The position numbers and the translations under genes were made by a program. A DNA stretch of 64,000 bases from Terramyces sp. JEL0728 (Eukaryota > Chytridiomycota > Chytridiomycetes > Rhizophydiales > Terramycetaceae). Where the stretch lies: assembly GCA_027603945.1 (NCBI GenBank), contig JADIIU010000002.1, forward strand, positions 248,001 through 312,000. The letters run 5' to 3'. Under the pieces are notes generated by a model. The model ran no database searches, was not told the DNA's origin, and saw only the letters and a program-made list of their open reading frames with translations. Shown here piece by piece: positions 1 to 64,000 of this stretch (positions are counted from its first letter, which is position 1; every line of letters starts with the position of its first letter).

Positions 1-1020
1 AACCTTTTGTACGCGTATGCTGGACACATGAAACCTAGCGTAGCACCATTCATGGTAATATTATCGAGATTTGTTGTTGGGTTTGGTTCAGGGACGCTGG
101 GAGTGACACGATCGTTTATAACAGAGATTAGTTTGGAAAAAGACAAGCTACAGAATATTAACCGCTCGGTGTTCTCGCAGTATTCTGGATTTACACTTAG
201 CCCGTTGATTTCAGAAGCGATATTGTTTTACACCACAAATACAAGTATCAAACACAATGCAGCACTTCACGGATTAACCATGTGTGTACTATATTTGCTG
301 GTTTTAATTCTATTATTTAAACTGCCGCCTCAAGACGATTTCTGCAAATCCAGCTGCTTCACTATTGAAACTGGGGATGAAGAAAAATTAGGGATGATTC
401 AAGCAACACCACACAAATCAGATCCAACAGTATGCAAAGAATTTGCAATTTCAGAATACTACTGTTTCATATTATTTATTCTAATCAATTTCCTGTTGCG
501 TGGTATTCTTGGTGCAATGGAAACCACTCTCTCATCCACATTTTTCAGTTTAAGCGGAAATGTAAAGACTGAAATCGCTGTTATGGCATGCAATCGGTTC
601 TTTATTGGAATAGGTTTATTTGGTATGGCAATATTCTATTTCATCCCTGGAATTGTCGAATCGATATCCGCTTTCAACACTTTACTCGTTGGAATCCTGT
701 CGTTTTCTGTTGGCTCACTTTTGACATCACCGTTGATTGACAATCAGAGCGTAGTGTTGTTTGTTGTTGCTTCAGTTTTGATATGGTCGGTCGGAAGCCC
801 TATCGCTCAAACGCTGACCATATCCTCATTTTCCAAGATGATTGGATCTAAGCCAAGTCCATTAGCAATGGGCTGGCTAACAACTGCCGGCAGTCTTGGG
901 AGAATTGCTCTTCCATTACTAGCCGGAGCCAATCAGACAATTTCTTCAATAGTGATATTGGTATGTTGTTTCTTGATACTGGTAGGAATAACAGTATTCA
1001 AAATGCACCACTTGAAATAA
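1..1020 (+). CDS. MFS transporter, MFSD8/CLN7-like (5' end outside window)
   Basis: The reading frame is open from base 1, so the start lies upstream of the window and 339 residues are visible. It has repeated hydrophobic helices typical of the major facilitator superfamily. The motif SRFVVGFGSGTLGVTRSFI near the visible start resembles the conserved helix of MFSD8/CLN7-type lysosomal transporters (family knowledge). A hydrophilic loop at about residues 105-145 separates two helix bundles. The stop is seven bases from the stop of the convergent next gene. No intron is needed in the visible part. Substrate is unknown; assignment within MFS is tentative. Confidence 0.6.
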   Translation, partial: NLLYAYAGHMKPSVAPFMVILSRFVVGFGSGTLGVTRSFITEISLEKDKLQNINRSVFSQYSGFTLSPLISEAILFYTTNTSIKHNAALHGLTMCVLYLLVLILLFKLPPQDDFCKSSCFTIETGDEEKLGMIQATPHKSDPTVCKEFAISEYYCFILFILINFLLRGILGAMETTLSSTFFSLSGNVKTEIAVMACNRFFIGIGLFGMAIFYFIPGIVESISAFNTLLVGILSFSVGSLLTSPLIDNQSVVLFVVASVLIWSVGSPIAQTLTISSFSKMIGSKPSPLAMGWLTTAGSLGRIALPLLAGANQTISSIVILVCCFLILVGITVFKMHHLK

Positions 1021-1027
1021 ATACTAT

Positions 1028-1450
1028 TTATTCTTTGATGTACAAATGAGCGACTTTTGCTATGTTGTTAAAGTCCCCATCAGAAACTGGAACCATACGC
1101 TCGCCTTCATTTTTACAGAGAGAGATTTGTTCCTTCAAGGTAAGCAATCCTTCAATTTTCGCTTTAATTTCAGTTTTTGAATCTCCAGGATTAATTACGA
1201 TGGAATACGTCTGGTACTTTGTGTGGATTTTAACTTTTGGCAGCCCGTCCTTCTTTGTAAGACTTTTCCGCCGGCTATTCCTCTTGATTTTCATATTCTG
1301 TAAAGAGTCGCTTAATAAATTAACAGATGGTATATTTGTTCTCGTCGAGCCATGAATTCTTGGTTTTGGAGCTTTTGAACGAATCGCGGTGTTGTACGAA
1401 TGGCGAAACTCTTGGATTGGAGAGCTATTTGTAGTCGTATTTACATCCAT
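1028..1450 (-). CDS. hypothetical basic protein, 140 aa
   Basis: Single-exon frame; I chose the ATG at 1450 because the longer frame has only a TTG upstream. The N-terminal half is Ser/Thr/Asn rich with a basic cluster (KIKRNSRRKSLTKKDG). The C-terminal ~70 residues alternate hydrophobic and polar residues and could be a small beta-grasp-like fold, but I recognise no family. It is convergent with the MFS gene and tandem with the homeobox-like gene. Function unknown. Confidence 0.5.
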   Translation of the reverse strand: MDVNTTTNSSPIQEFRHSYNTAIRSKAPKPRIHGSTRTNIPSVNLLSDSLQNMKIKRNSRRKSLTKKDGLPKVKIHTKYQTYSIVINPGDSKTEIKAKIEGLLTLKEQISLCKNEGERMVPVSDGDFNNIAKVAHLYIKE

Positions 1451-1483
1451 TATTGTTGCGGTTGTCAAATATTTTTTCTCTTT

Positions 1484-2020
1484 TTAAGATTGTTGGCTCA
1501 TGCTTGAATCAACCTCACTCATACTCGTTTCAGATAAGAAATGCTTTTTGGCCTTTGGCTCGATTAAAAGCATTATTGCCCCAATGAGATTCCTTCTGCT
1601 GAATTCCTTTAGTGCACTTGCAAATTTACTATTCGCGCAATTCTCTGTGGAATCCACCTGCAGATATGCCTTGATTACACAAGTAGGAATAGGAAATTTA
1701 GAAAGATTCAACCCAATAATTTATTTGCAGTTTCTACAGGTGCTCAAAAGTCTTTTAGACGCTACTATTAAATTCCACATACCATGCTTGAACCAACAGA
1801 GCAAGTCTTCCTTCTTTAACCCAGTAATTTCTGATAGTTCCCACAGCCTATCATCATCCTCAGTGGGCAGGGTATCATGCATATTGAGATAGGCTTTCAA
1901 TGCATGCATGGCTCCGGCGGATATCTGCTTGCGTGTATTTATTCTCCTGCCAAACACTGTTTTCCCAGGCTTTCCGTTTAATCTGCGCTGTGCTATCATC
2001 TTTTGAGTAATTGGAGTCAT
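1484..2020 (-). CDS. homeobox-like DNA-binding protein (~163 aa, two introns)
   Basis: Removing a 21-nt intron (1762-1782) turns a weak frame into a homeodomain-like sequence, with NTRKQISAGAMHALKAYL as helix 1 and GLKKEDLLCWFKHASKRL as the recognition helix. The WF pair is in place, but the normally invariant Asn of WFxNxR is His, so DNA binding may be atypical. A TAA follows soon after. The frame continues only if a second 24-nt segment (1714-1737, GTAG...TTG) is removed, which would be a non-AG 3' splice site; otherwise the protein ends at 1721. The tail to 1484 is Ser rich. Family call is moderate, the 3' half uncertain. Confidence 0.5.
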
Positions 2021-2118
2021 ACTAAAAGTATGGAAAATTCAGGTCCCAGAATTAGGCAATGTGTGATTTTGTACAACCAATGAGTTTTGGACAATTTGTA
2101 AATGAATGCAACAATTTA

Positions 2119-4598: not shown

Positions 4599-6047
4599 TC
4601 AGCCTTGGAATAAAAACAAGTTATTAGTCGCTGCTAATGCGACGGTATTTTCTCTTGGATGCCATGAAGCATGGATAATCTTTTTTCCAAATTCTAACGT
4701 TTCAACATTTGAAAATTCTTCCCTTCTTGTTAATTTTCTTCCTTGGGGATTTGCCTTGTTCTTGGAAGATCCGGCACGTTTAGCCTTGAAAGCACTCTTA
4801 TCTGCCTGAAGGATGGTGTCGGTGTCGTTTGCAATGTTAAACACATGGAAAAAGTTTGAATAGCTGCCAGTGAGAGCTTGACTACAGTTAACCATTATTA
4901 CGTTCCGTCGCCAGAAAAGTTGCATTCAAATTTGTCAAAGATACAGTCATTCTCATAGAGGTCGCAGAGCTTGCCCTTCAAGTGATCATGGACATTGATC
5001 ACCTTGACTGGTTTGCTCTCCATATTCATATCCCAAATTCTTAGTGTTGTATAATCTCTGGCAAGAATATATCTTCCATCACTCGAAAACTTGAAATCAG
5101 AGATGGAGGAAATGATTTCAGAGAAAAATGATTTGCTAGTAGGGTCTTCCTCAACACTAAAAACTGAAATCAGCCAAAATTACCTTTGGAGTAGTTGTCG
5201 CACAATGCGTTGGTGCGCATATCGTTTACCCTGATAGTACCCTTGCTGCTGCTGTATACAAAGGTATTGCATTGGGTTGGATGGAACTCGGCACACGTAA
5301 TGACTTCAGTAAGTTCCTCCATATTAACAGGTTTTATATCCACAATGTCTATTATAAAATGCGAGCTTACTGAAACTTTGATCTGAAATTTCCAAGTTCC
5401 ACAAATTAATTCTCAAGTCATCAGCGGATATATAAGTCTCTCCATCAGAGTTTACCGAAATCGAATTAATGTGATATCCATGTGCATTCTGGTATATTTT
5501 ACGAGGATGTGCGGCGGTTATTGTGTCGTGATAAATCAATTTTGGTAATTTCAAAGCGTCCTTCTTTGCAACAGGCAACTTGGTCTTGTCTCCCAGATTG
5601 TTTTCCGACACCACCTTGATTGACTTTTCAAATATCTTCCAAAGCTTGATTGTCTTGTCTAGGATGAAATTTAATTACCATTTGTCGAAAGCAAAAAGTG
5701 TGCAGAATTCTGGCGCTTACACCATCGAATTTTGTTGATTTTCTCTTCGATTTCTAAAGATTTCAGGTAGTCAAACTCTGGTTCATGGGACTGGAACTCT
5801 GTAAAGAATTTGTATTCGCAGGCTTTTTTCTATCGTTAATGGCAATATACCCCTTCATTTCTCTCAAACAGCACCACTCTGCCTCCTCGGTCTCCAGTAG
5901 CCAAAAAGTCACCTGTATGATCGAATTCAACTGCAGAGATTATATCGGCTAAAGTTAGCCGGATAATGAACCTTCTGTGACATCCTCTACCTCTCCTTTG
6001 TCGCCAAAACATTGAGCAAACTTCCAACCGTTGTCTGGATCTGCCAT
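4599..6047 (-). CDS. CDC55: PP2A regulatory B subunit (PR55/CDC55)
   Basis: Seven-bladed WD-repeat regulatory subunit of protein phosphatase 2A, 440 aa, close to the usual ~447. Six introns of 20-23 nt interrupt the frame. Diagnostic PR55 segments include [71 protein letters not shown] and [16 protein letters not shown]. It targets PP2A to mitotic substrates in other eukaryotes. The start at 6047 gives [15 protein letters not shown], matching the family N-terminus. Its promoter is shared with the divergent RING gene (99 bp between ATGs). Confidence 0.93.
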
Positions 6048-11594: not shown

Positions 11595-12743
11595 TTAAAG
11601 GAGTTTAAAGAAATATTCGCTCTTTGGTTAGTCTTGATTACCTCCAACACGCCGTCTTCAGGCAAGTCGGTACAGTGTACCGCATTCTTCACTTTGTCGT
11701 CTCCATACCTTGCTCGGAGTGAGTCTGGTCTTAGTTGTTTAGCTAAAGCTGGATCTACCGGCCCAGTAAATTCTCTGAATTTTTGCACTATATCTTTGTC
11801 TCCGACAAGCTCTATAGCAATTAACGGACCGGCTGTCAATTGAGTCAGCATCAAATGATATTCCGGAACAACGCCCTTATAAATTTCAAGAAATTCTTCT
11901 GCGTTTCTATTATCCAAATGTACCAGTTCCATATCACCAATTTTAAAGTGTTTTTGAATATCCTTAATAACTGGTCCTGATTTTCCTGCTGTTAATCTCT
12001 AGTACCAGCTAAAATTGCATGGGGCCGGATTATGCATAAGGTGCAGTTCTCCAACGATGCTGTGCGAGGTAAATTAGTACCAAAGACGACGTTCAATTGG
12101 CGGTCTATATCCTTTTCATCTGAAGGGATATGGAACAAGTCCCGGACATTTGGCGACTTTACATACTTGTCAAAATCCTTGTCAACCAGGCGGCTCAAGT
12201 TATTAAACGCATCGGCACGCAAGACTACCATTAATATATGGAACCTTCCAACACTACGCTGCTGCCCTTTAGGCTGGATGCATTCAATTGTTCAGATACT
12301 GAGTCGCTGAGATATGCCATTCTCATTCTGCAGCACGTAAACTTTTCTGCGTGCAATCCAGTCAATATGTCTCCCAAGTGCTGCACTCCTTCTGGTTTAA
12401 TTACTAGTAAAGAACTGAGTAAAGTTCAAAATACCTCGTCAATTGATTCTTTAACCGTTTTCTTGTAAATTCGTCTCCATAGTCTCTAATAAGCAACTGT
12501 CTGGCATGTATATTAATAGCAGCTCCCAAGAATAAGTCTATCAACCTGATATCTGATTTACTCCTCTTCAAAAACGTTCTTCTTTGTTTTGGATCGTACT
12601 TGTAAATTCCGACTTACCATTTCAATAGTAGAGTCCAAAGGATAGAAAAAGAATTCGTACTGGCGATATAACTGAGCGTGGACATCAAACCATTCTGCCA
12701 AGAAGCAGTATCTGGTCTTTGGGTCTGATTCTAATTTTTCCAT
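11595..12743 (-). CDS. NME7: NME7-like protein (DM10 + two NDK domains)
   Basis: 349 aa with five introns of 19-20 nt. The N-terminal DM10 domain reads YCFLAEWFDVHAQLYRQYEF. It is followed by a degenerate NDK domain (LLVIKPEGVQHLGDIL) without an active-site His motif, and a second NDK domain (CTLCIIRPHAI...NAVHCTDLPEDG) whose NxxH is conserved. The C-terminus YFFKLL matches NME7. In animals NME7 acts in the gamma-tubulin ring complex and ciliary axonemes; its presence suggests a flagellated life stage. The last intron (GTAATCAAGACTAACCAAAG) restores the conserved end. Confidence 0.9.
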
Positions 12744-28689: not shown

Positions 28690-29477
28690 ATGAAAACGAT
28701 TTATTTTTGCAGACATGGAGAGACACATGCAAATGCTTCCAATGTATTGCAAGGCTCTGGAGTGGATATGGAATTGAATAATAATGGAAGAGAGCAAGCC
28801 AAATCGTTAAGAGATGAGTTGAAAAATATACCAGTGGAATTGATAATCAGCAGTAAATTAAAAGTACCTAATATTTTATCTGAAGAGGGCCGAGCAAACT
28901 GCAAAAGTGATAAAGCAATGTCATTCAAAGGCAGAGGTTGTAAGAGTTGCAGAATTGGCCGAGACTAGTTTTGGGGATTGGGAAGGAACAAAATCACCAC
29001 ATTTGAATGAATTGTTAAGGAAATGGGGAAACGGAATGCATAATGGTACCTGGTACTAATTCAAGAGAAGCCTCCAAACGGTGAAAGCCTGATAGAAGTG
29101 CAATCCAGAGTGATGCCTGTGATTTACAGCTATATCCTCAATAGAAAAGAATCCGTCCTGGTATTTGTGGGTAAGGAGCATTAACGCAAGTGCATGGAGC
29201 AATGATGCGAGTAATCCTATCATCTTTACTGTTTCGTTCGCTGGATTACACACATTTATTTTCAAACCACAATGCCTGCATTAATATTCTCCAAGCACAC
29301 ATATCAAATGAAGAGGTAGCTACTCCTTTAAATGATGAAAATAATGTCCTTCAGTGTTTTGCAGAATATTCCGTATTGACTCCCCCGAATGTAGTTGGCC
29401 ATCATCCTCAGAATCTAGTTTTTGTTCCAGTTAAATTTGATTACACTGCCCATTTGGAGTATACTATGAAATGGTAA
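28690..29477 (+). CDS. histidine phosphatase, copy 2
   Basis: 241 aa with introns of 22, 20 and 20 nt. It begins YFCRHGETHANASNVLQGSG and has ETSFGDWEG and FVVHGAMMRVI around the second catalytic His. Bases 29003-29342 are almost identical to 30011-30350 in copy 3, introns included (four differences in 340), while flanking coding sequence is clearly diverged. That pattern points to gene conversion. Function as for copy 1: small phosphoester hydrolase or mutase. Confidence 0.8.
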
Positions 29478-29697
29478 AATACATTATTCTTTTTTTGCTT
29501 TACGAGTTTGCGATTCATTGGATTTGTGTGGACTAGACACAGCGTTCCTTTGTGTCAACTACCTGTTTAAGATTGGTCTATGTGCAGCACTATTGTCGCC
29601 GAATACTCTGTTATTGAGCAATAAATATATTTTGCCTTTTTTCTTGGAAAATTGGTTCATTCGGGATTTCGGATATCAGAGTTAGTCGATTCAAAGG

Positions 29698-30503: not shown

Positions 30504-33500
30504 TTAGACTTTCGCTGATTTTAGGAATTTGGTGAGACTGTTTGTCCTCAACAAGTTTGCAATATGCTCGAAAGTGGGCTTCCAAATTTCTGGATGATAG
30601 TTACCAGAAGAAAGCTCGTTGATAATCTGTTTTCGTTGCCTTTCAATTATGTTGATTTCTTTAACAGACTCTGATTTAATGTATGTGTCAACAATTGATT
30701 GGCACATTGATTTGAGCTGTACCATCAACTCCTTGTACTTTTCTCCAGTCATGCTGCTTGGCTGAACTGGTAAAACAAAGCTAGGTTGATCGTTTTGCTT
30801 TAAAGTTCCGGTATGGGCTAATGGAGAAGTGCTCTGAAGGTTCAAGGGATTCGGATAGTAAGGGGAAGAAAGTTTGTGGTAGTTGATGATAGCCAGCAAA
30901 AACTCCAAATTTTCTTCTGTGTGCTATTGTTAATAATCTCAGTACCTCGTTTTTAAGGAATTTCATAAAATCTACAGTTAGTTTGGAATGACCTTGAACG
31001 CTGTATGGGGGCGGCAACTCGTTCAAAACTATCTGTTTGATATTTGATTTTATAACTCCGGAATTCGTTCTTGCTAGTGACTCTTCCACTTTCATTTTTG
31101 GGATATTGTCATAAGCATATTTCCAAAACTTTCCCAAATTGTTGGTCTTTATCATATTAGTGATGTGGTCTACTGCTTCATTTAATATGTGCGGATGATA
31201 TAGCCCGTGGTCAAATAATTTGAAAAAAGGCTTTCTGATATTAGTCGGCAAGTTAATCTCTCGAATGGAATCAGGCTTCATGAATGTCTCTACGATATCT
31301 GTAAGCATCTCTCGTAAATTTTGTTTTCTGGTTTCAAATTCGCTTTGTGTCAAATATGGCGGCATTACTGCCTTTGGAACCACAATTTCCAACGAATGTG
31401 CAGGATTTTGCGAATTGTGTAAAAACTAAGTTAGCTGTAATAAACCTCAGTCAGACTTTGTGAATTGAAATCTGCCCCGCGTACAACAGGAGAATCTTCA
31501 ACATGGCTCGACTCTTTTTTATGATGGTGCTCTTTTGGGATAACTTTTTTTGCAGGTTTAATAATTGGATGTGGATATAGTGGGGTTGCTTCGTGTTGAT
31601 ATTTTAATGCTGATTTTAGAAACTCCAAGTTTTCTTCGCACAACTACGTTAAATGGCTAATACTTCTCTCTTTAGGAAAACGAGGAAATCTACATTAATT
31701 AAAAGTACCATTGTAAGAATGTGGTGAAAGCAGCTCGTTGTTAATCAACTGCTTTAAAGAATATTTTGGGATTGCGTCTTTGTTACGAGTAGTATACCTT
31801 CTCTATTAATAAGTTCTTCTATTTTCTGTTCATAGACCCACCACGCTTTTGTATTCAGATCATGTGCGAAACAGTCATAGCATTTGGTGAATATATCCGG
31901 GTGGTACTGTCTTCTTTCAAACTTGAGTAATAAAGGCTTGGATAGCTCTGAAGGGATAATTAGTTTTGCATCCTGGCTCCGCAAATACTGATGGACAATT
32001 TCTGAAAACATAAATTCAATCTTTTTGACCAGCGCTTCGTAATCTTGTGGTTTCATATTTGCCGGCTTTTTAGGCTGCGCAGTATATAGTGCTTCGTTGG
32101 AATTTGTTGCCACAGAATCCCTTCCATCTGTAGAGTTGAGCGGGGTTGTAGATGGACCAGTTATTGTTGCCGAACTGGATTCCCTTCTTCGCCCATGTGG
32201 ATTTGCCATGCCAAACACTTGAATCGCTACCTTTTGATATTGAATGATTGCCCTTAGCAATTCTAGCTGAGGTTGGCACCCCATCTCATGACAAAACTCT
32301 GAAAACCCTTTAATTAGAATAGAATTAACCAATGTAGCTGTACGGTGGCTGCAATTCGTCAAGTAATAACTTGTCCAACTTTTTCCTACTTGGGTTCTCC
32401 AACCTGCTGGAAAGCCCTTTTGTTAAATAGCCCCAACCTTTCGAAAGGCCGTCCTTGTATGTTGTCTTTAAAAATTTAGTTAGATTATTCTGCTGCATCA
32501 TATCAAAAATATGCTTTTTCGATTCACGATATATATCTGGATGTAGCACATTTTTTGAAATTTTGCTCAATAGCGGTTTTTTGATTTTCGTTGGAATATT
32601 GATCTCTGATGGCGCGCTTTCCGAAATATATTGATCGTGTATAGCTTGGTTTGCATCCTTCACCTTTTGCACATGTTTTTGATAATCATCTTCTGATAAA
32701 TTGTTTGGTTTTTCGGGAAAGAATAGCTTGTCTAGCGGATAATCAGTTTCTTCGAATGTTGTGGGTAATTTCGAATCTCTCTTCGATACAGTTGCACCCC
32801 GAACAATGGTACTCATTCTTACCATTGGTATTGGTGTCGGAAAGAGACCTTTGGCTAATTTTTCATAATCTGAAACTGCCACCAAGAATTTTAAATTTTC
32901 TTCAGAGAGCTACATTGAGCAAAGGTTACCTGCTTTTGAAGGAACAGCAAAAAGTCTGAATGTTACTTAGAATTACCGTTTCTGGAATATGGAGGTGGAA
33001 TTTCATCGTTAATTAATTGATTCAAGGAATACTTGGGTACTGCGGCTGTTTTTCAGCAAGATGTTACCTTCGATAATGTTGTTTGCATTTAATATATCTG
33101 TTCCGGCCTTTAGAAATTTATTTAATGAATTGGTTTTCAGCATGTGTGCAATATGTTCATAAGCTGGGTTCAGTATATCCGGATGATATTTTGCTTGGGC
33201 GATGTGAGCCAACAGCGGTCTCCTAATGGTGGTTGGTAAATTAATTTCACGGTGCGAATTATCCTTCACATACTTGTTGATTAATTCTAAAATTGATGTT
33301 TTGATTTTTGAAAGTTGTTCTTGGTACTCTTGCTCGGTCAAGTCGTCTGGCTTTTCCGGAGAAGGTAGCGAAGCTGATGCCATTTTATCGACGGAAGTGG
33401 TTGGTTCGCTATCAGTAGGCGATTCGCCGTTGATTGTCGTTCCCCTATCCAAATATATTGGTGGTGGAGCAGTAGACAAACCTCTCTCTCTGCCTTTTAC

Positions 33501-34404
33501 AACTGGTTTTGGGAAAAACTTTACGGCTGTCATTTGATACTTTACAACGTCAATCAAAAACTCAAGATTCTCTTCGCATAACTGGTTGTTAGAAACAATG
33601 TACATCTTTTTTCAAAAACTGCATGAAATCTGAAGGTTAGAGCAATATTACCATTTTGAGAGAGCGGCGAAGATGACTCATTCAACACAATCTGGTTAAT
33701 AGTCAATTTTGGAAAATCCGTGATGCCAGACACCGAAACTCTATTCTTCTGTCTTAAAAATTTCAAGAATGAGTTTTGTGCCAGGATTTTTGTGCAATAT
33801 TGAGCAGCGGTATCGAAAATTGAAGGGTTCAAATGGCCGTCTGTATATCTATTCTGGAGTACTATTCGGATTTGATCAGGCAGGAGCAAATCTCGCTCGC
33901 TGTTTATCGTAACATACAAATCTATGATGTTGGATAGCCGCACTTTCAAAGCATCCAAATTCTTATCATATAATTTAGAATCTAGATTGTTAATATTTGC
34001 AGGTTTTGTCAAATCAGTGTTAGATTTCGATTTATAGTCCGCTACACTATCCTCAGGAACATTTTCTTTCAGCGAAACAGACTTTTGGTCAGTCAATTTG
34101 CTTTCAAAAAATATTGCTGCTGCTTTTTTGTAATCTTGTACCTCTGCGATAAATTCTAACTTTTCAGGGCAGTTCTGATTATCAGCAATCCGTTTACCTC
34201 TTCCTTGAGAAAATCCATGAAATCTACATTAGATGATTCAAAACCTTTGAATGACAGTGGAGATGGCAGTTCGTTACTCAGCACTTGGTCGATGGTGTAT
34301 TTGCTGGGAGCCACTGTTGTCCGTTTGCGACTGACAGTGGTTGGTAAATTAATCTGCTGAGATGCAGGTATACATTTGGTAAAAAAAGACTCTATCGAAG
34401 TCAT
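30504..34404 (-). CDS. multi-RGS protein with six consecutive RGS-like domains
   Basis: Fourteen introns of 19-23 nt link what look like eight frames into one 1201-aa protein; exon total divides by three. Six RGS-like domains lie at about residues 38-200, 220-405, 418-598, 622-800, 812-1014 and 1040-1198. Each starts with an LPPPYS-like turn, then FMKFLK, (C)EENLEF, a 60-residue low-complexity insert, EINLPTTIRRPLL, YHPDIL and ends NSLNKFLK. Most share a phase-1 intron after the PPYS turn and a phase-0 intron before CEENLEF. Domains 1 (PEKLEF) and 4 (QPQLELL) lack the Glu-Asn pair. Likely a GTPase activator or scaffold for G-alpha. Confidence 0.82.
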
Positions 34405-35968: not shown

Positions 35969-38131
35969 ATGTTCAATCGTGGTGAAAAATACAGACACCT
36001 ACCAACAAATCTACCTGAGGATTCGATTGGTACAGAAAGATACTCAAAGTCATCTAGAAAGTCTGCTATATTAATCTACATAGGAGGAATAGCTACAGGA
36101 ATCCTCTTATCCTTATTAATTAGTCCCAGCCAATCGAACCAGCTGTGCTTCAATAACGGTAATATTGCACTTACTTTCTGATATGCCAGAGATATCTCGA
36201 AGACAGCATGAAATTATAAAGTCAATGGCTGCTTCAGTAAGTTGCCTTTAACCAAGAATGGAGTCGCGCCGTTATTGAATTGTAGCTCTGAAATGAAATT
36301 ATCAGCGATCGCAGGAAAAGACAATGCACATGAAATGGAAAATAGGCTGCAATATAGTATGGCAGTATTAACGAAGAGAGCTGGAAGATGATACAACAAT
36401 CAAAAAAATAGACACTTTACCTTCTTCTTCAGTCTTCTGCACTGGAGCAAATTTCAATACGAGATATTGCAGGATTCGAAATCTATGCTACCATCCAAAG
36501 CAAAAAGATTGGTTTATCCTGAAAACAAACCTCTCAATATTTGAAAATGTCCCCGTGGGGGAAGAACGGTATCAAAAGCCCCTACTAGAACTGAGTTCTA
36601 TTGATGATCATCCTTATTTCGAATGGGATTACACGGAAGCTTCTCCATTTCATGAAAATTTAAGAAACAACACTGTTCGATATGTCACGAGCACACATTT
36701 TATGTTTAAACGACTCCACCCGTTGAATATTATGCACAACTTACATGATGATGTTTTGAACTTGTATTTTCATATCAAAAAAAACATGCCAAGGTTAGAT
36801 CCAAACCCAGACTTGCCTTTCAATCTAAACGATCATAGGATTTTATTCTTGGACCCGTACGAAGGGACTGATTCAACAAGACCATTTCAATATCTATCAC
36901 GACATCCACTAAGGTTCACCTCATACCTGCACCAGGACGAAAATATCCTTACTTGCTTTAGAGACGCAATTGTAGGTAATTCGCATACCACTAAATGGTA
37001 TCAGTATGGATTCATTGACGAACCTCAAGGTCCGCTTAAAAACCTGCCAAACGGCCTTCACGTTCGAGAGGTTTCCGAATGGATTATCAAGAGAAATGGG
37101 CTGGAATTGGGTTGGGATGAGGTGTATCCAATACAGCCTCCAAAAATAACTGACGCTTCGAAATTGGATAGCAGCCATTTGGATTTCAGTTCCACAGATA
37201 TAATAGTAATTTTATCAAGAAGGGGAAATAGATTGATGCTCAACGAAAATGAATTGGCAAATGAATTAACAAACCAATTTGGTTATAAAACAGTGTTTGT
37301 TCGGAATGAGGATCATACGTTTGAAGAGCAAATTAAAATACTACGAAATGCCAGGATTGTTATTGGAATGCATGGATCGATTTTGGTGATGGCAATGTTT
37401 TGCAGAAGGGGCACCGTCCTGATTGAGCTGTACCTATAGTTTTACATAGGTTTCCATACGCAGTTCCAAGTGAGGATTATACTCCTTATAAAACCATGGC
37501 TAATTTGCCGGGAATGGATTTGGTATACCGGGCGTGGGAAGTAATAATTGGCTAATCCAGAACAAATACCCCGAAAACTCAATAGGGTTTCCAAATCGAA
37601 CAAAATTACACGGGGTAGAATTTGTTAATGTAGGGCATTATTCATCTATCAAAAGAACTGCAAGACAATGTACTGGCAACCTCTCGAGTTCCCAAGCACA
37701 TCTGTTGCTCGTCACCTTATTGGCTATATCGAATATACCAGGATACCTTGGTGAAAGTGTCTGAAATTGCTATCCTTATTGATGACGCTATGGAAGAATC
37801 TCGAACAAACATCCTGAGCAAATTATATACCACAAACTACCTTGCATCCGATATCACCCCTGGTAAGGTTAGAGAAATCGAATGTGTCGACCACCCCCAA
37901 AGACCATCGGGGTCGCTTTGGGCAAAATGGAAGGAATTATGGGGTGGGAACGAGGTAGATTACTGGAGTATATTGATCAGCAATGATGGAAAGGAATATA
38001 TTACTAACACCAACTCTCCCTCTATCTCCATTCCTGGATTTAAGCAGTTTGACGAAATAACTTTCTATGTGCGTGCAGTGTCGCACGAAAAATACGGAGT
38101 ATGGAGTGATATTGCCCGCTGCAAAGTCTAA
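35969..38131 (+). CDS. POMGNT2: protein O-mannose beta-1,4-GlcNAc transferase (POMGNT2-like, GT61)
   Basis: 676 aa with six introns (31, 20, 22, 20, 20, 19 nt). A type II signal anchor ([19 protein letters not shown], ~32-50) is followed by a GT61 domain: [63 protein letters not shown] and [13 protein letters not shown]. The C-terminal FN3 module (~580-676) matches the animal enzyme's order. POMGNT2 adds GlcNAc to O-mannose in the ER to start core M3 glycans on dystroglycan. The first intron is longer than usual and its borders are less sure. Confidence 0.88.
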
Positions 38132-42963: not shown

Positions 42964-45900
42964 ATGGATTCTAAAAGAAATAGCGAGAAATTCAACTCAC
43001 AAGATACAGGAGTGTCCGTTGCAATCAGAATCCGGCCATTTAATCAAAGAGAGAAAAAGTTTGGAGATTGCGAACCCTCAATCAACGTGGACAATAACTC
43101 GCTGTTGACTCAAACCAATCCTGCAATTCAATTTAACTTTGGTAATTTGTACTTGAAACAGATCATGTCTTGGAACAAAATTCCACTACTTTGGATGTGT
43201 ATAACTCTGTAGCGAGTGACGTTGTAGCGTCCTGTGTGGATGGAATAAATGGTAATTTATTGGTGATATAGGTACCATCTTTGCTTATGGGCAAACGTCC
43301 TCAGGGAAAACATATACGATGTTTGGAACAGAAGAAGAACCGGGAATAATGAACCTGTCAATTCAGCATATCTTTAGCCACATTGCACAGGCAAACACCA
43401 TCTAATTTATAGACGGTAAACAGGGAATTCTTACTGCGTGTGAGTTATGTTGAAATCTACAATGAGGTTATCAAGGATCTTTTAAAACCTGGAAACGAAA
43501 ATCTGAAAATCCACCAGAATCCAAATGGTGAAATTTTTGTGGGCGATTTGACAGAACATGTTGTTGCTTCTTTAACAGATGTTGAAAATCTGCTGTCGGT
43601 TGGCGATAGTAATCGTCATATCGGAGAGACTAATATGAATGAAAAGAGTTCCCGATCACACACGATATTTAGAATGGTAATCGATTTTAATGTAGACTAT
43701 TGAAAGTAGGGAACGTGTATCATCACAATCTAGAAATTCCTCAACAGGTGCAGTTAAAGTTTCCAATTTGGTATGGATATTTTAATTGCAGAATTTGGTT
43801 GACCTTGCAGGTTCGGAAAGAGTTGGACACACTGGCGCAGAAGGGATACGATTGAAAGAAGGCGGGCATATCAACAAAAGTTTGCTGGCCCTTAGTACCG
43901 TCATTTCCAAACTTTCTGAAGGCAGGGATAGGTATTATTGATCTAATGTAGTGTTCACATCCCATATAGAGATTCTAAACTGACTAGAATGCTACAATCT
44001 TCACTTGGAGGTAATGCAAAAACCGGAATCATTTGTACTATCACGCCATCGCTGATTCACATGGATGAAACACTTTCCACTTTGCGATTCGCCAGTAGGG
44101 CAAAGACGATAACAAATAAGCCTCGAGTGAATGAAGTACTTGATAATTAAGATAGATTGTTCCTGAAGGCACTCTGCTGAAGATTTATAAACAGGAAATC
44201 AATGAGCTTAAAAAGAAACTGGATCAAGTAACCTTGGTTAATTACTAGGCAAATGAAAGTTCCCGCCTGTCTGATATTTCAAAGGAAGAGCTTTTAGAAA
44301 ATCGAGAAAAGATAAAGCTGGAAGCCAAAATTAAAAAGTTGGGACTGATGATTTTAGATTCTTCGAAAATCAAAGATAGCAGTAATGATTTACAAAAGAA
44401 GCGCCAAAAGAGAAGACAGACCTGGGTTCCATCTATTTTGGACAGTGGGAAATTGGCCGACTCAATTGGGGAAGAGATTGTCTCTTCTGCAAACGAAATT
44501 CTATCGTTGTTAAAAAGAATTACAAACGACGACCTGCAGGAGAAAGACATTCATGATTTCGAGATACTGGTATACACTGTCTAATCAAGAAATTGTATAG
44601 ATATATTGCAAACATTAAATCGGAATTATCATTGCTTAAAAATACAAACGCTGCATCTGAGGAAAGTTTAAAGAACGAACAAAAGCGTTCTATACCCGAA
44701 GATGGCGAATTAGAAGTTGGAACTAAAAGACTAAAGATTTCTCATGACAGTGATCTCCAACAAGCGGGTTTGCTCTCCAGCGAAATTTTCTCTGATTTGA
44801 ACATTTCAAATATAGAAGAACTCTCCACCTTTCTTCAAGTTAATATCCCAAAGTTAGCTAAAGTGCCAAAACTTGAAGAAAACAATATGGAATTAATTGA
44901 GCAGATCAAAATTTCAACTGACAAATTAGCAGAATTCGAAAAGATAAAGTTTGACGCAAACGAAACATCACAAAAAATCACTGAAGCAATGGGAATTTTG
45001 TCGTCCGATAAGCAAAACGCAAATTTCAATGAACACGACTTTGTCCAATTGGTAAAACTTGAAAAAAGCAAGATGCAAAATGGAATCAAGACCATATTTC
45101 AGTTACTCTCGAAGAGCGAAGTTAACGAGCAGGACATGGATTTGGAGATCTTGGAAACATTAAATCTTGATGACCGTATTAAATTCGTAGACAGCTTGAA
45201 AGAAAGTAAACTTGCCCGTGATTTTACCACATCAATGTCAGCGAAATTTGCATTAGAAGATAGTTCATTAGAGGCAATTTCTACCCACATTCTGCAAATT
45301 AATCAAGAGTTACAGGACAAAGTTGCTACTTTGGAGAGTAAAAATGCAGAATTGGCCCACATGGAAAGTACCAACAAGGACTTGTCTGCCCAAAATGAAG
45401 TGTTACTGAATGATGCTGATACATTGAAAATCGAGATTCAGAAATATGCGGACGAGATTACAAATTTAAAGATCGCTGCCGAGAATCAAAATACCCTGAT
45501 TGAAGGATTTCAAAATGACAAAAGAATTTATGAGAACGAGAAAAATGACCTGCAAAAAGATTACAGTTCTCAAAAGAATGAAATAGCAGATTTGAAAATA
45601 CAAAATCAGCAGTTGCTTGCACAGCCAATTGAAATCACACAACTAATGAATATCTTGAATATCAATAGCGACGGGCGAGTGCTTAACACGATTGCTGATA
45701 TTGAACCATTGATAACCTTGAAATTCAATGAATTGGAATCAAATCTAGCCAGAATGAACCTGGGGCAAGAACAATACCAGGAACTGGTAATTCGGTTGGG
45801 TGAGAAATTGCATGTGGATACAGTTGGAAAATGCATGCTTTCAGAATTAAGTAAGGACTTTGAAAATGCAATTGATTCAATTATCGATGAAAAAAATTCA

Positions 45901-50596: not shown

Positions 50597-51909
50597 TTAC
50601 TTTTTTTGCTTAGAGGATACTAATTCATTGTAAGCAACTTCTTCGGCTTCAACAGTCTTTCTCAATGCTTCCAATTCCTCGAGCATTTTTTGACGAGTGT
50701 TGTTTAGAGCCTCTTCACGTTCACGCAAGCTTTGCTCCTTTTCTCTAACTTTGGCAACGAATCTTTGGCGCATCGCTTCTTCCTTCTTTTGCATTTCATC
50801 GGCAAGATTTCTTTTGGCATTTTCAATTCTAGACTCATAAAAGTCATCACAGGCAAGGAATGATTCTGGTCGTCCGTTGCCTCTAATCTTCTGGCCACGG
50901 TATGTGGCATAGTGAATAGAGTGAGTAGTGTCAATTAAGTCTTGCATGTTTGTTCTGATATTAGACCACAATTACCCAATCAACAATTCCCTTAAATGTA
51001 CAAAGTCGCAATGCAATGGATTTTCCACTTCAACATTACCCCATCTATATGATCTTCCTCTAACCATTTTTCCACTGACATTGATTAATTTGTCACTCCC
51101 GATAACCGTGAATGGAATATGCTGCTCCAACTCGGAGATAAATTCTCTATCTTCAGCATGGAAGGTAGGATAAGCTCTAATATCATATTGTTCAAAATCA
51201 CGCAAGATTGCTTTCTTGTATAGCGAAACTTCTTCTGGCGCCAACGCATCCGCTTTTGCAATAACAGGGATAACGTTCACCTTTGAGCAGATTCTTTGCA
51301 AGAATTCAACATCCAAGTCATTCATTCTGTATAAGTAAAAAGTACCTGTTGATACCAGTTGGAGGCAAAAAGTACAACAAGGCGTGTACTCTAGTATCAG
51401 GAATGTTTCCACGGATTTCTTGTGATCTTTCTGCTGCCAAGTATTTGTCGTGTTGCTTTTCGATATAGTTGATAATTGGTTCAAAGCTACATAAATTAAC
51501 AGTTACTTTGTTTCACGATTCAACTGGTCGCCAAATCCAGGAGTGTCAATAACAGTCAGGAATAAATTTACTCCGTCTTCAGCAAGCTCAAAAGTAGTTG
51601 GGTTGATTTCAACTGTTTTTGAAGCAAACAAATTTTGAGAAGCGACTTTTTCAGTTAAAGGAGCGTTGAACAAAGTGTTTAAAAATGTAGTCTTTCCTAG
51701 TCCAGATTCTCCAGCAACCATTAAATTGAAAGCGTATGGTCTCTTCTTGGAACGCTTCGCTTGCTGTTTAGGCAGCTCTCCAATTCCCAAGGATGCATTT
51801 GGTCTTAATGTAACTGAGCGAGGGAGTTTCCATGGGCCTAGGTCAGGGTTTAATCCACGAAATTGTAAAGCGTATTCCTGTTGTCAAATAAAGTTTTTAC
51901 CAATGGCAT
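50597..51909 (-). CDS. septin GTPase
   Basis: 409 aa with four introns (23, 20, 19, 21 nt); the first exon is just ATGCCATTG. GTPase motifs: G1 GESGLGKTTF, G3 DTPGFGD, and G4 AKAD. The septin unique element is at DFVHLRELLIGTNMQDLI and THSIHYATYRGQ. A C-terminal coiled coil (~320-409) fits the CDC3/CDC12 class. Forms hetero-oligomeric filaments at the cell cortex in fungi and animals. Confidence 0.93.
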
Positions 51910-52256: not shown

Positions 52257-53704
52257 ATGACTATAAAACCAAGCAAAGAAGGTCCATCATTAAAGACTGA
52301 TGACTGGCCGTTGTTACTCAAAGTAATCAGATTACTCATCGATAGAATTTTGATAAATTGAATGTACGTACAGCCCACTATACACCAATTCCCAATGGAT
52401 CCGCCCCATTAAAGAGAGATATTGAAAACTATGTCAAGTAAGATATTATTAATGATTGATATGGTGTAATCAACCTCGACAAACCAGCAAATCCATCTTC
52501 CCATGAAGTTGTTGCATGGATTCGAAGAATATTAAGGGTAGAAAAAACCGGACACTCTGGAACCTTGGATCCTAAAGTCACTGGATGTCTGATTGTTTGT
52601 ATTGATAGAGCAACTCGTTTGGTTAAATCGCAACAAGGTGCTGGAAAAGAATATGTTGCTGTTCTCAGATTACATGATGCAATTGATTCGGAAAAGAAAT
52701 TAGCACAATCTTTGGAAACACTTACTGGTGCCTTGTTCCAACGGCCTCCACTTATTTCAGCTGTTAAACGTCAATTGCGTATTAGAACTATTCACGAATC
52801 CAAATTGATTGAATTCGATAACGAAAGACATTTGGCTGTATTTTGGGTGTCATGCGAAGCCGGTACTTATATCCGTACTTTGTGTGTGCACTTGGGATTG
52901 TTGCTAGGCGCTGGTGGCCATATGCAAGAATTGCGCCGTGTTCGTTCTGGTGCTACAGGAGAATCTGATGAAATGGTCACTATGCACGATGTATTGGATG
53001 CCCAGTGGGTATTGGACAATACCAAAGACGAATCTTATTTAAGAAGAGTGGTCAAACCATTGGAATCTTTGTTGACTGGATTCAAGAGAATTGTTGTCAA
53101 GGATAGTGCAGTCAACGCTATTTGTTATGGTGCCAAATTTATGATTCCTGGTCTTTTAAGATTCGAATCTGGTATTGATGTCAACGAAGAAGTCGTCTTG
53201 ATGACCACAAAAGGTAATTGTTTCTAATAGTAGGTGAGGCAATTGCTTTGGCTTACGCAATGATGTCAACTGCCGAAATGGCATCTTGCGACCATGGCGT
53301 CGTTGCGAAAATCAAAAGAGTTATTATGGAAAGAGACACTTACCCAAGACGGTGGGGATTAGGGCCAAAGGCTTCAGAAAAAAAGAAGCTTGTTGCAGAC
53401 GGCAAACTTGATAAGTTCGGCCGTCCAATTGAAGGCACAACTCCAGCCGAATGGAACAAAAACTATGTAGATTATGCTTCGTAATCATTTCTAATGGTAG
53501 AGGCCAAACTGCTCCAAAAGCTGCTAAGCCGCTCGTCGAAGAAATCGAAGAGCCAAAGAAACGTAAAGCTGAAGAAGTTGAAGAAGCAGAAGAATCCAAA
53601 CCAAAGAGGGAAAAGAAAGGTAATTGCGCTTTAATATAGAAAAATCTGAAAAGAAGGAGAAGAAGGAAAAGAAAGAAAAGAAGGAAAAGAAATCCAAAGA
53701 ATAA
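52257..53704 (+). CDS. CBF5: H/ACA snoRNP pseudouridine synthase CBF5 (dyskerin)
   Basis: 447 aa with five introns: 23 nt, 21 nt, then three exactly 20-nt ones (53214-53233, 53481-53500, 53620-53639). TruB catalytic motif [45 protein letters not shown] and a PUA domain ([20 protein letters not shown]) are present. The C-terminal KKEK/KKE tail is typical. The second intron (52438-52458) ends in TTG; only this removal gives [17 protein letters not shown]. Isomerises uridine in rRNA and supports telomerase RNA. Confidence 0.95.
52438..52458 (+). other. GT-TG minimal intron in CBF5 (21 nt)
   Basis: Begins GTAAGATATTATTAATGATT and ends TG. There is no AG between the donor and the conserved GVINLDKP codons. 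Removal keeps frame and gives the family sequence. Confidence 0.75.
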
Positions 53705-56111: not shown

Positions 56112-57920
56112 TTAGAGAATGTTTCCGGACGCATCTACCTTTTTGAATATGGCAGGTCTTTCCCCAACCCCGCCAAAGGAGTCAAAGACAATGCCACAAA
56201 CAACATAAGCTAAAGTTTCAGTCTCTTCCCTAGTTTCTGCTTCGGCATATACACGAACGACATCTTCTGTTCCAGATGGTCTTACAAAGCAGCGACCTTT
56301 TTTGAATTTGGCAACTTGGGCATTGATTTTGCCTTGTAGTCCTTTTGGCTCCACCAATTCAGTATCAGCATTGATCGGAACAAATGCGGCCCTGGATGCA
56401 ACCTATATTAACGTAAAATACCTTGACTTTTTCTTGTCTACTTGGCAAATCGGTGTAAGCACTGTCCCATTGCTTGAATGATTGTTGGGTAGAAACCAAA
56501 ATTGCCTCAATCATCAACATGTCAGAGAGAGCATCGCCAACGGTTTGGTTAATAAGATCTGAGAGTGCACGCAAAGTTACAAGGGCAGCCTTTTCAGTTT
56601 CAGTGGTTCAAAGTTAATTCTTGCTTACCCTTCAGTAGTCTTGAAAGCAGTGATAGCAGCATCGCTGAATAAAACAGTACCGTGACCATTCGCTTCAAAA
56701 TATACACCAACGTCAAAGTGGGCTGCTTCGTGGTGCAGGTGCTTAACCCCAGTTGGGGTAAATACTACAGGAACTTGCAATTTGTTCTTTACATAGTCCG
56801 TGGAGCTTCCATTCGCGTAGGCAGTTTGTACGAGACCGACTTTGAGAGGCGATTTATCGCCGCGAGTTACGTTTGCTTCCTTGATCTTTGACATGATGAA
56901 TCCGGCAGCCAATGTAGCAATCTTGTCGCCGTCCAACAGCCTAAATACTCCAGCTGGGTTAGTACAAATTACCATCTAGGATTAGTTACACAATACCATC
57001 AACGAAATAAAAGACGATACGGTCGGCATCTCCATCAAGCGAACACGCTCTTTGATTTGGTGTCAGAGTAGTTCCGCGAGGTGCTTTTTGCCCAACTTTG
57101 ACATAATCTGCACCACAGTCGAAATTCAAGACACCCTTCCCTTTAATATCAGTGTTGCTAGCAGTTACAGCCAAGTCTTCTCCGATATGCTGGCTCAAGT
57201 CTTTTAACGCAACTGCCCCAATACCATTTGCACAATCAACCAATAGTGGAGACAAACGAGCCTTTCCTCCAACGATTCTCTTGAATGCTTCTGCCAATTT
57301 CTTGTGATATCCTTCGGTAGTAGGTTCTCCATAAGCATTTGGAGTATTGGCCGTGTTGATACATCGGGTAACATAGTGCAGCTGAGGTGTAGTTTGCAAT
57401 CCGTAATCGGTAATCTTTCCATTCAAAGCTTTGACACCATCCTTCAATGATTCCACCAATGCTTCTCCAGACGGTCTGCAATTAATGGAAATAACCTTGT
57501 ATCCCTTGCAATGACAACATTTGCTGGTGCGCTCATATTGATCTTGCATTTTGCAGCGATATCATCCAGTGCAGCTTGCAATTGCTGGTGAGTTTCGCAG
57601 TTTGCCAAGGTGATTGCATGCTCTTCCCATGTTTGATCCAACATTTCGCCCAGAGGTTCTACCAATTTAACGCCGTTATCCTTAATTAATCAACGTATAC
57701 AGCTTCAGGATTGTGAGATGCAGTTACCATTACACCAATTGTTTGCCCATTATGACTTTTTGAGCGCAGTACAGCTAATAAACCAACAGTGAACATGATC
57801 GAGTCCAGCAAATCTGATCTACATTAAGCGGGATTACTTCATACGGAATCCAGCGGTTCCATAGGTGAATTTTCCAGCTGCTTTAGGGTGCTTTTCGAAT
57901 AATTGTTGAAGTAAAGACAT
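56112..57920 (-). CDS. PCM1: phosphoacetylglucosamine mutase (AGM1/PCM1)
   Basis: 556 aa with seven introns (19, 20, 20, 21, 19, 20, 19 nt). Catalytic serine loop [10 protein letters not shown], metal loop [10 protein letters not shown], sugar loop and C-terminal phosphate loop [17 protein letters not shown] identify the alpha-D-phosphohexomutase family; the length and TYGTAGFRM start fit AGM1. It makes GlcNAc-1-P for UDP-GlcNAc, feeding chitin, N-glycans and the POMGNT2-like enzyme here. It contains a 3-nt exon (56973-56975) and a TTG-ended intron. 31 bp separate its ATG from the divergent dephospho-CoA kinase. Confidence 0.92.
56609..56628 (-). other. GT-TG minimal intron in phosphoacetylglucosamine mutase (20 nt)
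   Basis: Minus-strand sequence GTAAGCAAGAATTAACTTTG. The only nearby AG acceptors break the frame; removal to TTG joins FKTTEG to [18 protein letters not shown], and the gene's exon total divides by three. Confidence 0.7.
56973..56975 (-). other. 3-nt microexon (ATG) between two minimal introns
   Basis: In the mutase gene, introns 56976-56996 (21 nt, ends CTAATCCTAG) and 56954-56972 (GTAATTTGTACTAACCCAG, 19 nt) flank the trinucleotide ATG. Keeping it gives [15 protein letters not shown], equal in length to family members; a single 43-nt intron would also be in frame, one residue shorter. Confidence 0.55.
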
Positions 57921-58909: not shown

Positions 58910-58934
58910 CAACCGCCGAGGAATTTAAATCAAT

Positions 58935-61963: not shown

Positions 61964-61990
61964 TGCAGATATTTTTTGATTTTCAAAAAA

Positions 61991-62338: not shown

Positions 62339-62734
62339 TAGAGTTACCATTCCAATTTACTATTGTGTTACTTTAGCAGATCTTGGCAATAAATAAGGAT
62401 CTTACCCTCGGTGCTCAGGAATTCAATTATATTATACGGTAATTAATGATTTCTGAGAGTATAATTCAGGGTAGGTAATTAATGATTTCTGAGAGTATAA
62501 TTCAGGATAGGTAATTAATGATTTCTGAGAGTATAATTCAGGATAGGTAATTTCCATAATGCAAATCGAGTTGCACCTCCATATAAGTTGGTGAGATAAT
62601 ATCCAGTAAAGATCCGAGTAGGGAGTTATTTTATATCCCCAATCTTGCTATTCCTACCTTCACTCTGTGTAGTTCTGGCACTGAATATCAGACTTGTACG
62701 CCTCGTGGAAATTCTTTCACTCGATCTCATAAAC
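62339..62734. other. intergenic region upstream of ARL8 (396 bp)
   Basis: Gene-free apart from the 36-bp tandem repeat listed separately. AT rich. Confidence 0.45.
62438..62545. repeat. 36-bp minisatellite, three copies
   Basis: Unit begins GGTAATTAATGATTTCTGAG and ends TTCAGG(G/A)TA; copies at 62438-62473, 62474-62509 and 62510-62545 differ at one base, and a partial fourth follows. Each unit contains a GTAAT...TTCAG stretch that resembles an intron. Confidence 0.9.
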
Positions 62735-63337
62735 ATGGATTATTTAAATTCGTTTTTAAATTGGCTAAAGAGTTTGTTCTTCAAACAAGGTACAATAAGA
62801 GTAACAAGAAATGGAATTGACTTTGGTTGGATTGCAGAACAGCGGAAAAACAACACTTGTGAATGTGCTCGCAAACGGACAGTTTACTGAAGACATGATT
62901 CCGACTGTCGGATTTAACATGCGGTAATATTTGCTAATGTAGTAAAGTTACCAAGGGCAGTGTCGTGATGAAATTATGGGATTTAGGCGGTCAAGCCAGG
63001 TTTAGAGGAATGTGGGAGCGCTATTGTAGAGGTGCCAATACCTAATATAGGTGTAAATGCTATTGTATATGTTGTCGATGCTGCTGATCATGCGAAATTA
63101 CCTTCAGCAAAGACAGAATTACATTCGTTAATCGAAAGACCGGTTTTACGAGGAATCCCATTGTTGATATTGGGAAACAAGAATGACTTGCCAGAAGCTT
63201 TAAAAGTCGATGATTTGATTGAAACTTTTGGATTGAGATCGATTACAGATAGAGAAGTTTCGTGTTACTCGATCTCTGCTAAAAACTCGAATAATATTGA
63301 TACTGTTTTGAATTGGTTGATGAAACATGCCTCCTAA
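62735..63337 (+). CDS. ARL8: ARF-like small GTPase ARL8
   Basis: 181 aa, near the standard 186, with three 19-nt introns. N-terminal amphipathic helix ([17 protein letters not shown]), GTP motifs [15 protein letters not shown] and NKND, and the ARL8-specific [19 protein letters not shown] and [20 protein letters not shown]8 controls lysosome/vacuole positioning and kinesin recruitment in other eukaryotes. Confidence 0.95.
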
Positions 63338-63413
63338 TTGTTTTTAATATACACAAGTTATCACATTTTAATTTCATCGAAACACTTAATATTCGTTGGT
63401 AGCGGACAATCTT

Positions 63414-64000
63414 ATGATACTGCCAGTGAGTATCAACCACCATCGGCAGTTGTCCGAAATGAAATTAAAAACAAGATCTACAAACTTGACGAAATTCAAA
63501 TTTGATTCAAAGAATGCAATTTCCATCTATTATTCAAACACAAAAGTGCAATTATACAAAAACCAGCACTTGCTGCAAGTCATTAATGCCGACATTGACT
63601 GGATTGCAGTTACTAGATTCGATTCTGAAGATGCAATTGTAATTGCAAACAAGTGCTTTACAATTTACAAACAATCTGATGAAATTCCATTAAATCTACC
63701 GTTTAAAGTGAAAAAAATATTTGGATTGGAGAATGGAGCTTTGTTGGAAACCGATAGTGGGATTCACTGTTTGCTTGGAATATACCACGACTATTTGAAA
63801 CTGGATCTGGAAAGAAATCAGTCTGTTTTGAATGTTTTTAATCTTGAGGCGGATATACTGGTCACTAATATGGACAACAAGGTGGATATTTACGAACTTA
63901 AACAGGTGGATGACTTGGAAAGAACAATTGAACCAAAACTTGAAAAAACTGTGAAAATAAAGTATACGCCAAACAAGTGCGAATACGTAAAGACCAGTGA
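63414..64000 (+). CDS. APC1: anaphase-promoting complex subunit 1-like, N-terminus (partial)
   Basis: Frame open from ATG at 63414 to the window end (195 codons) with no stop. It looks like a beta-propeller start: short strands with repeated hydrophobic triplets. The segment IPLNLPFKVKKIFGLENGAL and later VLNVFNLEADILVTNMDNK resemble the N-terminal WD-like region of APC1 (LPFxV...GLLxE). A second in-frame ATG is at 63459. The assignment depends on the missing part. Confidence 0.5.
   Translation, partial: MILPVSINHHRQLSEMKLKTRSTNLTKFKFDSKNAISIYYSNTKVQLYKNQHLLQVINADIDWIAVTRFDSEDAIVIANKCFTIYKQSDEIPLNLPFKVKKIFGLENGALLETDSGIHCLLGIYHDYLKLDLERNQSVLNVFNLEADILVTNMDNKVDIYELKQVDDLERTIEPKLEKTVKIKYTPNKCEYVKTS

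Follow-up and report, generated by a model that had tools for sequence, protein, structure and literature searches.

How short can an intron become and still be removed by the spliceosome of a fungus? The question is raised by a 64-kb stretch of the Terramyces sp. JEL0728 genome (contig JADIIU010000002.1, C2:248001-312000; hereafter the window), in which an earlier inspection of the letters by themselves, hereafter the sequence-only reading, had seen about 165 spliceosomal introns, nearly all of 18-23 nt. It had called the genome fungi-like, and the source is indeed a chytrid, with an assembly of 15,016,339 bases in 231 contigs. Because the segments have GT..AG ends on the sense strand and a branch motif able to pair with U2 RNA, and because their removal restores conserved proteins, we interpret them from sequence and homology as what appear to be genuine U2-type spliceosomal introns of this chytrid whose length has been reduced to a functional minimum, 19-22 nt; to this reading we assign a probability of about 96%.

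Length peak and motifs of the predicted introns

A gene finder combining codon preference, the absence of internal stops and optional introns was written for this analysis and applied to the window. With intron length left free (12-80 nt, flat length prior, the end dinucleotides as the only motif), it placed 136 GT..AG introns, 82 of them 18-23 nt long, compared with 7-23 introns in this range when each of 16 decoy dinucleotide pairs replaced GT..AG and the codon table was unchanged. The antisense pair CT..AC gave 9 of 114 in this range, and the TA..TA decoy gave 18 of 154 without a length peak. Learned splice motifs with a flat length placed 108 of 135 introns within 18-23 nt, and learned motifs with a learned length prior, which favours short introns within a modelled range of up to 100 nt, placed 145 of 150 there with a peak at 20 nt (16, 17 and 18 nt, one each; 19 nt, 28; 20 nt, 65; 21 nt, 31; 22 nt, 17; 23 nt, 3; 64, 67 and 99 nt, one each). 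A loose setting (355 introns, 148 of 18-23 nt) was dropped as an over-prediction arising from its constant bonus for GT plus AG. The final model of the whole window (1..64000) comprises 48 gene models and 150 predicted introns, 147 of them of at most 26 nt.

The same peak emerged without gene models. Strings with a GTA[ACT] start, a [CT]T[AG]A[CT] motif with 5-7 nt after its A and an [ACT]AG end were counted on both strands for every overall length between 14 and 45 nt, with reversed sequence and Markov shuffles as controls. In the window, strings of 19, 20 and 21 nt numbered 21, 38 and 23 (82 in all), against 2, 3 and 8 in the reversed sequence and 1.4, 2.2 and 1.8 in the shuffles (about 5 in all). 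In a 200-kb sample outside the window, made of 20 stretches of 10 kb, one each from 20 other large contigs, the counts were 49, 72 and 33, against 14, 5 and 10 in the reversed sequence and 5.8, 5.2 and 6.4 in the shuffles. Strings of 18 nt stood at background (2 in the window, 1 in the sample), so that 19 nt forms a sharp lower limit, and those of 23-45 nt were near background. The peak at 19-21 nt described in the sequence-only reading therefore holds with free length, with learned models and in the count independent of gene models, while its figure of about 165 does not stand as an exact number, introns of 18-23 nt amounting to 82, 108 or 145 depending on the model, plus three non-canonical ones recognised by homology.

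Predictions outside the peak were few. Longer introns make up 3 of 150 in the window model (64, 67 and 99 nt), two of which are false by homology, and 2 of 259 in the sample model. A 16-nt prediction (36365-36380), which overlaps a 22-nt alternative from the looser setting, and a 17-nt prediction (34144-34160) break the pattern and were probably mis-modelled. Of the 147 predictions no longer than 26 nt, 115 have a length that is not a multiple of three, so that their retention would shift the reading frame; in-frame stops occur in 30 of the 32 whose length is a multiple of three, an excess biased by the finder and unused as evidence. Intron-like strings within coding sequence showed no depletion (15 in sense orientation versus 10.2 ± 3.3 in synonymous shuffles).

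The introns share a set of motifs, with the GTA start and the YTAAY-like branch motif described before and mostly TAG or CAG ends. A GTA start is present in 88% of the predicted introns of the window, GTAATT, GTATTT, GTAATA and GTAATC being the most frequent 5′ hexamers, and the exon side of the 5′ site is A-rich with G at position −1 in 52%. The U12-type 5′ site has the consensus RTATCCTTT, and no such site appeared among the 20 commonest 5′ hexamers listed. The best branch motif in 404 introns no longer than 24 nt was TTAAT, CTAAT, TTAAC or CTAAC in 242, with related motifs in most others; its A lay at position 14, 15 or 16 in 364, mostly at 14-15, and 5 or 6 nt came after it in 332, bearing out the earlier remark that the branch point lies close to the 3′ splice site. 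The 3′ ends were TAG in 247, CAG in 98, AAG in 55 and GAG in 4, and the A+T content of these introns was 69%. The T fraction was 0.40 in the spacer before the branch, compared with 0.27 in coding sequence, and positions −5 and −4 had 0.34 T and 0.24 C. A polypyrimidine tract would not fit downstream of the branch.

Conserved proteins across the intron junctions

We compared the number of residues across the junctions with 120 listed homologs for CBF5, PGM3/AGM1 and PP2A B55, and with one aligned structure chain per gene for a septin and a kinesin. At the 22 canonical junctions tested in this way (CBF5, 2; PGM3/AGM1, 6; PP2A B55, 6; septin, 3; kinesin, 5), nearly all relatives lacked an insertion of the corresponding residues, the feature that the sequence-only reading had named as telling against introns.

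In PP2A B55 (minus strand), removal of six introns gave the same length as in 109-120 of 120 homologs, with 0-9 longer. These are the introns at 5949..5971 (23 nt; same length in 112, longer in 6), 5830..5850 (21 nt, whose retention would introduce an in-frame stop; same length in 109, nine being longer by one residue), 5659..5678 (20 nt; same length in 117, one, a Globomyces model, being longer by three), 5349..5370 (22 nt; same length in all 120), 5164..5183 (20 nt; same length in 119) and 4882..4901 (20 nt; same length in 119, longer in 1). In PGM3/AGM1 (minus strand), six windows spanning seven introns had the same length in 110-120 of 120 homologs and were exceeded in 0-6, and the first five canonical introns left no junction gap relative to a solved fungal-type enzyme. 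The canonical introns lie at 57819..57837 (19 nt; same length in 112, longer in 2), 57681..57700 (20 nt; same length in 118, longer in 2), 57476..57495 (20 nt; same length in all 120), 56976..56996 (21 nt) and 56954..56972 (19 nt), a twin pair covered by one window (same length in 111, longer in 6, shorter in 3), and 56403..56421 (19 nt; same length in 118, shorter in 2). Between the twins lies a 3-nt exon, ATG (56973..56975, minus strand), or else part of a single 43-nt intron; we kept the exon, which fits the length of 111 of the 120 homologs. Its residue is lacking in the public JEL0728 model and in one Globomyces model.

The three 20-nt introns of CBF5 (plus strand) pointed out in the sequence-only reading are present, together with two more. 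The 23-nt GT..AG intron at 52323..52345 and the 20-nt intron at 53214..53233 correspond to extra residues in none of 120 homologs. The 20-nt introns at 53481..53500 (extra residues in 1 of 117, in a variable tail that makes a weak test) and 53620..53639 (extra residues in 8 of 114, in an uninformative Lys/Glu low-complexity tail) were left out of the 22. In a tree of the 120 listed CBF5 homologs, which include no entry named Terramyces or Boothiomyces, the query grouped with metagenome sequences and chytrids, without a strongly supported set. In the septin (minus strand), the introns at 51487..51506 (20 nt) and 50955..50975 (21 nt) showed no insertion relative to the septin-7 chain, and that at 51327..51345 (19 nt) showed a one-residue difference adjoining the junction; a fourth intron falls outside the alignment. 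In the CENP-E-like kinesin motor (plus strand), no insertion relative to the CENP-E chain was found at 43142..43161 (20 nt), 43252..43271 (20 nt), 43677..43695 (19 nt), 43771..43791 (21 nt) or 43932..43951 (20 nt), a sixth intron at the alignment edge being left out.

Homology added three tiny introns beyond the end rules of the finder, one GC..AG and two GT..TG, each with a normal branch motif. The GC..AG intron of the kinesin motor (43391..43412, plus strand, 22 nt, CTAAT) replaces the false 67-nt intron of the automatic model, and its removal leaves 16 residues between GIM and REFLL, matching by eye the spacing from GVI to REFLL in CENP-E. Removal of the GT..TG intron of CBF5 (52438..52458, plus strand, 21 nt, TTAAT) restores a 12-residue stretch, with extra residues in none of 120 homologs, and removal of that of PGM3/AGM1 (56609..56628, minus strand, 20 nt, ATTAAC) gives the same length as in 110 of 120, with 3 longer. 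A scan permitting one extra end also proposed the kinesin GC..AG and the PGM3 GT..TG introns. Over 264 kb with one extra acceptor or donor, TG was used 8 times and GC 7 times, no more often than the decoys TT (10), AA (9), TA (8) and AG (8), and we therefore claim only the three homology-backed cases. Base errors at single sites may also lie behind these ends.

In an RGS-repeat gene (30924..33651, minus strand), tiny introns of 19-22 nt occupy equivalent positions in successive repeats, and the repeated positions yield three exons of 26 nt and two of 69 nt. The gene (30504-34404, minus strand) carries three RGS stretches in the 556 residues scanned, with similar repeats beyond.

Splicing machinery and a possible route of recognition

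Five of nine splicing components sought in the genome were found, namely U2, U5, U1C, SF1 and U2AF65. The U2 RNA (140 bits) has an intact branch-recognition sequence, GUAGUA, with which the branch motifs of the tiny introns can pair, and the U5 RNA scored 86 bits. SF1 has its helix-hairpin, KH domain and zinc knuckles, the U2AF65-like protein has RNA recognition motifs (RRMs), and a U1C zinc finger is present. The SF1 and U2AF gene models themselves hold introns of 19-20 nt, that of SF1 also a doubtful one of 15 nt. Near the U5 gene, two equal-scoring tRNA matches (L024:1901-1982 and 2330-2411) lie 429 bases apart.

A typical intron begins with a GUA 5′ site, aided by the A-rich exon end with G at −1; a spacer of 7-8 nt, rich in U, leads to a YURAY branch motif whose A is at position 14-15, and a YAG closes the intron 5-6 nt further on. 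The 13-14 nt from the 5′ end to the branch A would leave no space for the U1 and U2 particles side by side, and between branch motif and YAG the 1-2 nt available would be too few for a polypyrimidine tract. In human splicing, about 50 nt from the 5′ site to the branch site are needed for joint binding of the early particles, and Smu1-RED assist where this distance is short (PMC6692369); in some short human introns with truncated tracts, SPF45 replaces U2AF (PMC8363638). Given so short a distance, we propose a sequential hand-over as the simplest path, in which U1 would read the 5′ site first and depart, the 5′ site would pass to U6 while U2 takes the branch, and U2AF and SF1 would work through the U-rich spacer together with the branch motif, in place of a downstream tract.

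The hand-over has one competitor that accepts the introns as real, in which U1 and U2 would pair across exons instead of across the intron. Such exon definition would avoid a clash of the two particles, and the median internal exon in our models, 209 nt, is a workable size for it; yet the 26-nt exons and possibly the 3-nt exon between tiny introns would offer little room across the exon either, and we regard this route as unlikely, while giving it some weight.

Readings other than splicing

The remaining explanations do without splicing altogether. If the segments remained in the mRNA and the ribosome skipped them, by translational bypassing or programmed frameshifts, this would equally account for the frame shifts that 115 of the 147 would cause and for their lack in nearly all relatives. 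It predicts neither the GT..AG ends, nor a YTAAY motif at a near-fixed distance, nor a floor at 19 nt, and the genome has genes for U2, U5, SF1, a U2AF65-like protein and U1C, making bypassing highly improbable. We consider it just as hard to credit that the finder invented short introns to bridge frames or assembly errors: many of the 355 introns of the looser setting were indeed invented, and the 64-, 67- and 99-nt as well as the 16- and 17-nt introns of the final model are doubtful, but decoy ends gave no peak, the motif peak is independent of gene models, the junctions match relatives, and the public JEL0728 protein is joined in the same way at two 20-nt introns. Ciliate-like internally eliminated DNA left in the assembly, which the similar size of the short eliminated sequences of Paramecium might bring to mind, is barely conceivable given that the orientation follows the gene strand, that the TA-bounded decoy shows no peak and that the organism is a fungus.

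Against the interpretation as U2-type introns stand several observations. The total coding score of TA..TA (2138) exceeded that of GT..AG (2113), because TA..TA removes stop codons. Junctions backed by homology number 22 among 145 introns and come from 5 of the 48 gene models; 8 of them depend on a single aligned structure chain per gene, and at individual junctions some homologs (at most 9 of 120) are longer. The six-frame U2AF match, at 252 bits, lies below the family cut-off of 310, and bacterial controls also give matches, two of them to this family and one to that of U1C. Searches of the assembly recovered no U1 RNA, a pattern search for its 5′ end also giving no match, and no U6 RNA by covariance model, core-pattern or half-pattern searches; the two RNAs may be divergent, split by introns or missing from the assembly. 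The N-terminal domain of U1-70K and the RED domain had no candidates, the controls being silent too.

Candidates for U6 were rejected: a half-pattern match was coding-looking and had no RNA match, and two weak covariance-model matches (27 bits, below cut-off) fell in a coding-like stretch on two contigs. The latter stretches (L002 and L003, on C199 and C111) are near-identical and look like a duplicated gene or repeat.

Extent in the genome and lineage

The tiny introns are not confined to the window. In the 20-contig sample, the free-length model placed 239 introns, 136 of them 18-23 nt long compared with 20-36 for four decoys, and the model with motifs and length placed 255 of 259 in this range, a share favoured by its length prior. 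All 20 sampled contigs had tiny introns, with at least 2 per 10-kb stretch. Their density was 1.3 per kb in the sample versus 2.3 per kb in the window, and extrapolation from the sample gives about 19,000 such introns in the 15 Mb genome. Window and sample together hold 205 models, 131 with introns, at a mean of 2.0 per model.

Terramyces belongs to the Terramycetaceae (Rhizophydiales, Chytridiomycota), an order that also includes Batrachochytrium, and strain JEL0728 is a free-living saprotroph. The best relatives of the PGM3 product are from Boothiomyces macroporosus and the public model of Terramyces sp. JEL0728 itself (493 of 493 aligned residues identical). The latter spans the 20-nt introns at 57681 and 57476 exactly as predicted here, so that public annotation already includes at least some of the tiny introns. 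The two models differ at residues 1-26, where the public start lies one codon ahead of the 19-nt junction, at 288, the 3-nt exon, at 381-414, around the GT..TG junction, and at 458-459, beside the last 19-nt junction. For B55, the Boothiomyces model (P0241) has a gap ending at the 20-nt junction at residue 109, and in that of Globomyces sp. JEL0801 (P0242) a gap begins at the 21-nt junction, residue 58, and the 109 junction carries three residues more. Public models of Terramyces (P0122), Boothiomyces and Globomyces thus show gaps or insertions at or next to the junctions of tiny introns; chytrid proteome comparisons may be affected, as judged from the few proteins compared. From these alignments we infer that Boothiomyces and Globomyces probably share the introns.

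A broader picture would be that of a fungus keeping ordinary branch-site and 5′-site factors, in which some 20,000 introns, essentially all, have collapsed to 19-22 nt, probably across a Rhizophydiales clade, and whose spliceosome never holds U1 and U2 side by side, works without a polypyrimidine tract, and tolerates a UG 3′ site and even a 3-nt exon, the public models of the clade being broken at these introns. We give this composite an even chance.

Other genes in the window

Two tandem genes at 28690-30479 (plus strand), which we take to be phosphoglycerate-mutase-like, share a near-identical stretch with the same tiny intron, GTACCTGGTACTAATTCAAG, at 29046 and 30054, which suggests a recent duplication or gene conversion. 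The gene at 11595-12743 (minus strand) encodes an NDK7-like protein with an N-terminal PH and an NDK domain and has five introns of 19-20 nt; NDK7-like proteins are linked to flagella, which fits a zoosporic fungus. Between gene models, a 36-bp unit is repeated 3.2 times at 98% match (62438-62552).

Comparison with known ultra-short introns

The sequence-only reading held these introns to be nearly the shortest possible substrate of a spliceosome, an overstatement in view of the 15-17 nt introns published for Stentor (PMC9505925) and mikrocytids (PMC10245619). They do come near the smallest sizes recorded in any organism. Chlorarachniophyte nucleomorphs have introns of 18-24 bp in Bigelowiella natans and Gymnochlora stellata, mostly of 19, as reported in a paper that also covers Lotharella oceanica (PMC4035089). 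Their narrow size class overlaps that of Terramyces, but they reside in the reduced nucleus of an algal endosymbiont, whereas Terramyces has a 15 Mb fungal genome. The ciliate Stentor coeruleus has 8,806 annotated introns of 15-16 nt (PMC9505925), which resemble those described here in their near-single length, GTA start, AU-richness, 5 nt after the branch A and a conserved U2 branch-recognition sequence. The Stentor paper also reports that the glycine motif of Cwc25 has been lost and that an end of Isy1 is altered. In Stentor, however, the branch A lies at position 10-11, while in Terramyces it lies mostly at 14-15, making the loop about 4 nt longer. Because the 5-nt tail is equal and the loop is not, the two systems may share a 3′ limit and differ in their 5′ limit.

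The mikrocytids Mikrocytos mackini and Paramikrocytos canceri have introns of 16-17 nt, likewise of very narrow size range and with conserved motifs, but they are parasites whose spliceosome is strongly reduced and for which 224 introns are predicted (PMC10245619). By comparison, Terramyces has genes for SF1, a U2AF65-like protein and U1C and, by extrapolation, about 19,000 introns. Microsporidian introns are 23 nt and longer. Microsporidia are like Terramyces in being relatives of fungi with short introns and unlike it in their few introns and reduced spliceosome (PMC10245619). The kind of intron is therefore already known from nucleomorphs, ciliates and mikrocytids, and the lineage is new as far as our literature search reaches, which, with most subscription papers outside its coverage, turned up no description of introns like these in chytrids or other fungi. 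The finding is surprising for its setting in the Fungi and for the retention of SF1, U2AF65 and U1C.

Until now, minimal introns were known from the nuclei of endosymbionts, from ciliates and from parasites, and could be put down to reduced genomes or unusual biology. The chytrid case would be an independent origin in the kingdom that also supplies the yeast models of the spliceosome, and one in which SF1 and a U2AF65-like protein are retained; the smallest workable substrate of the spliceosome thereby becomes testable by comparison, through changes in Cwc25, Isy1, Prp8, SF3b or U1 relative to other chytrids. Beside nucleomorphs, Stentor and mikrocytids, Terramyces offers a promising system for asking how small a removable intron can be.

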